Origin: Brenneria bubanii
GTDB lineage: Bacteria > Pseudomonadota > Gammaproteobacteria > Enterobacterales > Enterobacteriaceae
Length of the DNA stretch: 64,000 nt
Assembly (NCBI RefSeq): GCF_022378355.1
Contig: NZ_JAKMAJ010000010.1
Coordinates: 1-64,000, forward strand
Reading direction: 5' to 3'
The notes below the pieces were generated by a model. The model was not told the origin of the DNA. It did not search any database and was given only the letters and a program-made list of their open reading frames with translations. A program made the position numbers and the translations under genes. This document shows positions 2,848 through 45,657 of the stretch, piece by piece (position 1 is the first letter of the stretch; every line of letters starts with the position of its first letter).

Positions 2848-2898
2848 CGCATCACCATGATGAATAGCACGCGACGATCATGGCCACTGCGACGTATA

Positions 2899-3120
2899 CC
2901 GGCAGGTCTTCGGGCTTGGGGCCACTGTTACTCAGACTGCCGAAACATCGTTTGTCATACTCCTGCTTCGTAACAACAGATTTGTAACAACAAAGAGCGA
3001 TGACTTCCCATCTTTAACAAGACAGTGTCCGCATAATGCTATCGCTCGACTACCCTTACCGCTGCGCGTCAGCTCCAGATTCACACTGGATTCCCTTTTA
3101 ACTTGTAATAAAAGGCCGGA
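2899..3120 (-). ncRNA. cobalamin (adenosylcobalamin) riboswitch
   Basis: The minus-strand leader of btuB starts with CCGGCC, continues with GGGAATCCAGTGTGAATCTG and GAGCTGACGCGCAGCGGTAAG, then TTATGCGGACACTG and GGGAAGTCATC, and closes with the B12 box AAGCCCGAAGACCTGCCGG. All of these blocks match the E. coli btuB riboswitch in order. The variable peripheral arm (about 2930-2990) is longer and A/T-rich. Binding adenosylcobalamin should reduce btuB translation, together with the hairpin at 2824-2847. Confidence 0.96.
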
Positions 3121-3265
3121 TTTTCATGCTACGATCGCGCTACCCGGAGGTCTAGCCCCTAATTTCATTACAGAGTAATAACATTACGAAACTGGACTTT
3201 CCAGCCGGATCACCTGGATTTTCCGGTCAATATAGCCCTTTTGATGCCGTTCAGATGAGAAAACC

Positions 3266-17254: not shown

Positions 17255-17343
17255 GGGAAACCTCTGTTAAGGCCGTGTCGCTATCCAGCCCTGTTCCGCC
17301 AGACACCACACGAAAGTTGAGTTTAAGAAGTTGAATCGATCAA

Positions 17344-44780: not shown

Positions 44781-45458
44781 TTAGCGGCGGTTTTCGGCTG
44801 ATAGATAAGGCATATCAGGCTGTTGTTCGCTCAGGCGCTTGAGCACCACATTCAGCATTACGCCATACATAGGCAGAAAGAAAATAAGGCTTATCAGCAA
44901 CTTGAAAGTATAATCCACCAAAGCGATTTCAACCCAATTAGCGGACATAAAAGGGTCGGTACTGCGGTAAAACGCAATAAAGAAAAAGGCCAGCGTATCG
45001 CTGAGATTCCCAAACAGCGTCGAAACCGTTGGCGCCACCCACCAGGCATTACGCTGGCGCAGACGGTTAAAGACGTGAACATCCAGAATTTGCCCCAGGA
45101 CATAGGCCATAAAACTGGCGCTGGCGATCCGGGCAACCACGATATTTACCTGCCCCAGCGCACTGAAAGATTGCCATTGCCCCTGGTAGAACAACACGGA
45201 TACCAGATAGGAAACCAACAGTGCGGGAACCATAACGGTCAGAATGATGCGCCGAGCCAGCGGCGCGCCAAAAACACGCACGGTCAGGTCGGTAGCCAGA
45301 AAAATAAACGGAAAGGTGAAGGCCCCCCAGGTGGTATGAAAACCGAAAATCGATACCGGGAGCTGAACCAGATAATTACTGGAAGTAATGATCAGAAGAT
45401 GAAATAACGAAAGCCATATCAGCGCCGTCAGCCGCTGTTGGGGAGTAAATCGATACAT
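44781..45458 (-). CDS. yhhQ: queuosine precursor (preQ0/preQ1) transporter
   Basis: A 225-residue inner membrane protein of the COG1738 (VUT) family that imports queuosine precursors. It matches E. coli YhhQ in SLFHLLIITSSNYLVQLPVSI region, GFHTTWGAFTFPFIFLATDL region, LGQILDVHVFNRLRQ and STLFGNLSDTLAFF. ATG 45458 was chosen: AAGG lies 8 nt upstream, and the longer frame from 45497 would run through a preQ1 riboswitch. Ligand-controlled translation is expected. Confidence 0.96.
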   Translation of the reverse strand: MYRFTPQQRLTALIWLSLFHLLIITSSNYLVQLPVSIFGFHTTWGAFTFPFIFLATDLTVRVFGAPLARRIILTVMVPALLVSYLVSVLFYQGQWQSFSALGQVNIVVARIASASFMAYVLGQILDVHVFNRLRQRNAWWVAPTVSTLFGNLSDTLAFFFIAFYRSTDPFMSANWVEIALVDYTFKLLISLIFFLPMYGVMLNVVLKRLSEQQPDMPYLSAENRR

Positions 45459-45462
45459 ATAT

Positions 45463-45498
45463 GTAACCTTTTTGGTTATTGGGGTAAGGGAACCCAAG
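45463..45498 (-). ncRNA. preQ1-I riboswitch of yhhQ
   Basis: Minus strand: TTGGG and CCCAA form stem P1; the loop TTCCCTTAC holds CCTT, which can pair with AAGG after the A-rich tail AATAACCAAAAAGG to form the pseudoknot P2. The layout follows the Thermoanaerobacter tengcongensis preQ1-I aptamer, whose CTGGG, ACCCCAG and A-rich segment align block by block. The AAGG that enters P2 is the yhhQ Shine-Dalgarno, 8 nt from the ATG, so preQ1 would block initiation. Identified by eye; a one-base shorter loop 1 is the main difference. Confidence 0.85.
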
Positions 45499-45657
45499 AG
45501 ATATTGCGGCTTTTTTGCCGGCGCGGGCGCATGATACTCAATTACGCCGGCATTGCAATGGCTGTTTTTTGCGCAAACGTTGTCGCAACTTGCGCCTGAA
45601 AATCCTCAGCGTAAACTATGGCGGCTTTTTATTATTCGCTAATCGCAGAGAACATTG

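Follow-up and report, generated by a model that had tools for sequence, protein, structure and literature searches.

The window studied here, namely the whole stretch of 64,000 nucleotides, carries the gene yhhQ on its minus strand, and the identity of the gene is given by NCBIfam model NF008406 at 376 bits (cut-off 252). Downstream of yhhQ lies dcrB, while tusA (on the other strand) and zntA lie upstream; the order zntA-tusA-yhhQ-dcrB is common to the window and E. coli, except that a small hypothetical gene separates zntA from tusA in the E. coli record. Both queF and tgt are present in the genome to which the window belongs, and according to PMC10622847 QueF makes preQ1 and Tgt uses it. Two other structured RNAs were located elsewhere in the window, a cobalamin riboswitch (2884-3136, minus strand, 84.9 bits) and an L31 ribosomal protein leader (17260-17312, minus strand, 59.7 bits).

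Read on the minus strand, the yhhQ leader runs CTC TTGGG TTCCCTTAC CCCAA TAACC AAAAA GG TTACATAT ATG, with TTGGG at 45497-45493, TTCCCTTAC at 45492-45484, CCCAA at 45483-45479, TAACC at 45478-45474, AAAAA at 45473-45469 and GG at 45468-45467, followed by 8 nt and the yhhQ ATG at 45458-45456. The gene and the parts of its leader, together with the basis on which each part was assigned, are as follows.

44781..45458, minus strand: yhhQ, 7-cyano-7-deazaguanine/7-aminomethyl-7-deazaguanine (preQ0/preQ1) transporter, 225 aa, ATG start
45493..45497, minus strand: P1 5' strand UUGGG, positions 1-5 (sequence, alignment, P1 covariation)
45490..45492, minus strand: U6, U7 and C8, forming L1 and the turn (sequence; structural role from PMC10622847)
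45487..45489, minus strand: P2 5' strand or anti-Shine-Dalgarno CCU, that is C9, C10 and U11 (sequence, covariation; role from PMC10622847)
45484..45486, minus strand: L2, made up of the variable U12, A13 and the specificity base C14 (alignment; role from PMC10622847)
45479..45483, minus strand: P1 3' strand CCCAA, positions 15-19 (sequence, covariation)
45474..45478, minus strand: L3 linker UAACC, which could pair with GGUUA (45468-45464) when ligand is absent (sequence, folding)
45469..45473, minus strand: AAAAA, the A-rich strand of L3, of which the last two A are shared with the Shine-Dalgarno (sequence, alignment)
45467..45470, minus strand: Shine-Dalgarno AAGG, whose final A, G and G are the P2 3' strand (sequence, covariation; role from PMC10622847)
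45531..45558, minus strand: candidate sigma-70 promoter TTGCAA-16-TATCAT, 9/12 (weak evidence: one found against a shuffle mean of 0.6)

The aptamer proper comprises 31 nt (45497-45467, minus strand) and lies just 5' of yhhQ. A reading of this DNA made beforehand from its letters, hereafter the sequence-only reading, had proposed a 36-nt leader at this place as a minimal preQ1-I aptamer; the leader sequence was recovered on the minus strand as claimed, including AAGG 8 nt before ATG, and the location holds, while the length of the aptamer had to be corrected to 31 nt.

Systematic analysis of base pairing was done on an alignment of 54 distinct leaders, in which P1 occupies columns 6-11/21-26 and P2 columns 15-17/44-46. 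It was found that 88.2% of the cells were paired and that two-sided changes occurred in five of the nine pairs, with a covariation score of 0.152, compared with 0.066 on average in shuffles; none of the 500 shuffles scored as high, a result that is not to be read as a probability because related leaders inflate it. Further pair types were no better represented in the 54 leaders than in shuffles (12 versus 11.4; 229 of 500 as high). Sliding of the partner strand resulted in fewer paired cells, fewer two-sided changes and a lower covariation score, with the further pair types tying at a slide of +2. The covariation for which the sequence-only reading had proposed that leaders be aligned was indeed seen, in four P1 pairs and one P2 pair, the latter being C9-G30, which becomes U-A in 3 of the 54 leaders. 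Pairing is loose at the outer end of P1, where the last pair is open in 36 of the 54 leaders and its neighbour in 17, and the G-C pairs beside the loop hardly vary and hence say little. P1 is short with a conserved GGG/CCC right under the loop, and the A-rich L3 ends in an AAGG tail that is both P2 strand and Shine-Dalgarno (AAAAAGG, 45473-45467, 8 nt before ATG).

With regard to the pseudoknot, every cell with letters on both sides (100%) is paired at each of the three P2 positions, and C14 is kept in all 54 aligned leaders; the check on CCTT/AAGG and the conserved C, which the sequence-only reading had named as one that could count against it, thus did not refute it. The same reading had paired CCTT with AAGG over four pairs. 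Its pairing of the loop with the Shine-Dalgarno stands, but P2 consists of three pairs (C9-G, C10-G and U11-A), since a pair at position 12 is possible in only 3 of the 54 leaders and this position belongs to L2 in the crystallised E. coli RNA, while the A touches preQ1 (PMC10622847). All four bases, C, A, U and G, occur at position 12 among the relatives. A fourth P2 pair (45486 with a tail A), possible on paper in the window and in two further leaders, was tested and discarded as a conserved element.

Variants of the pairing were observed in other genomes. A U at position 9 was present in 29 of 394 genomes of the order. It stands opposite A30 as a compensatory U-A pair in 11 of the 394, from families f10 and f20 (L075-L085, also L053, L056 and L057), and in these leaders a separate AGG starts 0-3 bases downstream, so that the Shine-Dalgarno core falls outside P2. 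In 18 of the 394, all from family f27 and all with very short linkers (L086, L167-L173), U9 stands opposite G30 as a wobble. Nineteen of the 29 genomes with U9 were inspected, and in each of the 19 a reading frame followed directly, its first 60 residues YhhQ-like by eye. Where P1 otherwise has a constant middle G-C pair, L052 (a genome of the order) and L073 (a genome from outside it) have A-U instead (GAG/CUC).

It could be argued that a conserved ribosome site and a hairpin arisen by chance stand next to each other without any response to a ligand, and AAAAAGG is certainly constrained in part as a Shine-Dalgarno. We consider this extremely improbable, as the loop, which serves neither coding nor the ribosome, shows the same degree of constraint as the tail, compensatory changes occur in P1 and P2 (including U9-A30 in the 11 of 394 genomes), and the E. 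coli counterpart is a proven riboswitch (PMC10622847).

The element is also singular within its genome and much too specific to have arisen by chance. The pattern GGGTTCCCTNACCCC-N{1,30}-AAAAGG gave one match in the 4.89 Mb genome, and the reversed pattern gave none. When the core alone was searched with up to three mismatches, five matches were obtained in the window against 3.7 expected, the exact one being at the yhhQ leader only, and the loose matches therefore carry no meaning. A covariance model (R2), constructed from 21 leaders that belong to the same order but not to the window's family, scored 50.6 bits (E 8.3e-11) at 45464-45503, minus strand; the element is thus recovered by a profile built on other members, its own family being left out. 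The runner-up in the window reached 14.1 bits (E 0.14), and over the whole genome the yhhQ leader was the sole match with E <1, these E-values being rough by the tool's own statement. The folding energy of the leader is unremarkable (z -1.41 and -1.64), and thermodynamic folding alone would consequently have missed the element.

Rfam holds a family for class I preQ1 riboswitches, RF00522 (PreQ1), and a match to this model was among the checks suggested by the sequence-only reading. None was obtained at the site at E <=10, nor at gathering level in the window or the genome, and the window element thus scores below the curated cut-off. The test is an unfair one, since a scan of the E. coli yhhQ leader (L001 1400-1650), a proven type III element, with Rfam release 15 gave no match either. 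Among 14 control genomes including E. coli, RF00522 matched only in B. subtilis. The Rfam negative therefore concerns the model, which matches neither the window's element nor the E. coli type III element, and not the biology. A CRISPR-repeat match (E 9.2), the sole Rfam match at the site at E <=10, was dismissed as chance.

The distribution of the element among relatives was assessed in several sets. The core with its AAAAGG tail was present exactly in 183 of 394 genomes of the order, against none in the reversed control; this count refers to motif matches among all genomes scanned, whether or not yhhQ is present, with 29 of the 394 carrying the U9 variant. A protein search with YhhQ gave a match in 65 of 99 genomes. 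In the loci L001-L066, comprising E. coli, the window's genome and relatives, the gene start was matched in 65 of 66, and the motif pattern was seen in 62 of the 65 leaders compared, L061 having a variant loop and L062 and L063 lacking the motif. Among the best 80 of 553 named yhhQ relatives the motif was present in 79, and L112 also has it, with an N directly after GG. Across the class, a second covariance model (R1) matched 7 of 369 genomes at E <=0.001 under Infernal's stricter filters, with which weak matches are lost; of these seven, two belong to the order (one being the window's genome) and five lie outside it. All five matches outside the order sit directly before yhhQ, none of them before another gene. 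In the window, too, the element stands before yhhQ in a gamma-proteobacterium.

Class I preQ1 riboswitches of type III are recognised by a combination of UU following the 5' strand of P1 with AC preceding its 3' strand (PMC11625349). The short pyrimidine loop of the window, UUCCCUUAC at 45492-45484, has both, the C being the specificity base. The preQ1-I class named by the sequence-only reading is upheld, whereas the T. tengcongensis aptamer that it used as a yardstick belongs to type II and the direct equivalent is the type III element of E. coli. A type I or type II aptamer, or one that prefers preQ0, was also weighed, given that YhhQ carries preQ0 as well (PMC10622847). The combination of UU and AC is however that of type III (PMC11625349), and the E. 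coli type III RNA discriminates about 138-fold against preQ0 (PMC10622847), which leaves these assignments hardly any likelihood. Taken together, the yhhQ 5' leader almost certainly holds a class I type III preQ1 riboswitch, in which preQ1 would bury the Shine-Dalgarno and turn import off.

The spacing from CCCC to AAAAAGG is 7 nt in the window compared with 11 in E. coli, where the linker is GGUUAAUC (PMC10622847). Seven is the commonest spacing, seen in 30 of 62 leaders and in 53 of 79 among the best 80 of 553 relatives, close relatives being counted repeatedly. In the construct used for the published crystal the linker had been deliberately shortened, to a spacing of 6 by our own count (PMC10622847), and bacteria with a spacing of 7 therefore use a linker close to that of the construct. 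Other lengths were also recorded. A spacing of 9, as in a 34-mer said not to appear natural (PMC10622847), was found in three genomes (G133, G238 and G272) and is rare, occurring in none of the 62 leaders and in 1 of the 79 best relatives. The shortest spacing seen was 3 (CCCC-ATT-AAAAAGG, family f27). Long L3 linkers of 21-46 nt, with a predicted hairpin between P1 and the A-rich strand, occur in L025, L029, L037 and L038, and in L028 the aptamer hairpin lies even farther from the tail.

A particular trait of the window is that its linker UAACC (45478-45474) is predicted to pair with GGUUA (45468-45464), and this raises the question of whether the same riboswitch also has a ligand-free linker/Shine-Dalgarno hairpin that would hold yhhQ low and with which preQ1 would compete, giving a damped or bistable switch. 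The hairpin is predicted at -3.5 kcal/mol in the window, and the predicted probability that GG pairs with the linker is 0.97, the highest of 63 leaders; in the alignment its three inner pairs are possible in 81.4% of cells versus 45.5% when slid by one column, and the same UAACC/GGUUA occurs in Yersinia similis (L121). However, covariation between linker and tail is absent, with 81.4% paired against 80.5% when shuffled (126 of 500 as high) and a score equal to the shuffled mean. In nine other genomes of the genus a C in place of U breaks the fourth hairpin pair and the probability is 0.35-0.55, the hairpin of this commoner genus sequence reaching -1.5 kcal/mol and none being predicted in the E. 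coli linker segment.

Nor is a paired GG special to the window. In nearly all of the 63 leaders, E. coli included, GG is mostly paired, usually with downstream bases (median unpaired 0.06), and the folding of these leaders, whose model excludes both pseudoknot and ligand, predicted no open Shine-Dalgarno; such fold predictions are not to be leaned on, since GG is paired in most leaders anyway. Random linkers and tails, with a composition chosen by us, reach five pairs in about 1% of cases. A competing hairpin of this kind is accordingly regarded as unlikely, and the test for covariation lent it no support, strong as it is in the window's strain. That the linker doubles as an anti-Shine-Dalgarno, providing two mutually exclusive ways to hide the ribosome site with and without ligand, is more doubtful still; if it were a second anti-Shine-Dalgarno, the switch would set kinetics or leakiness instead of a plain ON/OFF. 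The UAACC/GGUUA hairpin might rather be a local quirk that tunes the ON state.

Returning to the type III riboswitch without such a second hairpin, its sequence, the gene that it precedes, its homology, and the covariation of P1 and one P2 pair are observed directly, and by homology to the E. coli element the yhhQ leader RNA very probably senses preQ1 and hides the ribosome-binding site. The ligand, its contacts, and the direction and size of the regulation would be those of the equivalent E. coli RNA, from whose behaviour the mechanism is taken over. When preQ1 is plentiful, it would bind between P1 and the A-rich strand, with C14 reading its Watson-Crick face and U6, together with the leading A of the Shine-Dalgarno, reading another edge; U6 touches preQ1 in the E. 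coli structure (PMC10622847). Binding would lock the Shine-Dalgarno AAGG with the loop CCU in the three-pair pseudoknot, the ribosome could then not start, and import of the precursor would stop. When preQ1 is scarce, the tail would be freed and yhhQ translated. The aptamer, the overlap of pseudoknot and Shine-Dalgarno, and the repression of import proposed by the sequence-only reading thus draw their support from the homologous E. coli element (PMC10622847).

A riboswitch in the yhhQ leader is already known in kind and in gene, and the copy in the window is an ordinary one with a slightly shorter linker. A literature search on preQ1 together with Brenneria returned no riboswitch paper by title. 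The analysis assigns a known riboswitch its proper place in a genome in which Rfam does not annotate it. The comparative set shows further that the commonest spacing among the relatives is four nt shorter than that of the E. coli RNA that has been studied, and the lineages with a re-paired P2 and a displaced Shine-Dalgarno core offer natural material for testing what part of the ribosome site has to be hidden.

Overall, the closest known system is the class I type III riboswitch of E. coli yhhQ, which binds preQ1 with a KD of 57.9 nM, has a cocrystal structure at 2.30 A, and represses a reporter 6.1-fold with an EC50 of 291 nM (PMC10622847); the class is thus known, as had been stated from the sequence, with the E. 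coli element both crystallised and tested (PMC10622847). The E. coli leader TTGGGTTCCCTCACCCCAATGGTTAATCAAAAAGG has the same 19-nt hairpin as the window except at position 12 (C there, U in the window) and the same A5-GG tail as Shine-Dalgarno, whereas P1 has five pairs in the window and six in E. coli. With the type II riboswitch of T. tengcongensis the window element would share the class I H-type pseudoknot, the C as specificity base and the L3 adenines at the ligand, but that RNA has a larger pseudoknot loop and a Shine-Dalgarno that makes no contact with preQ1 (PMC10622847).
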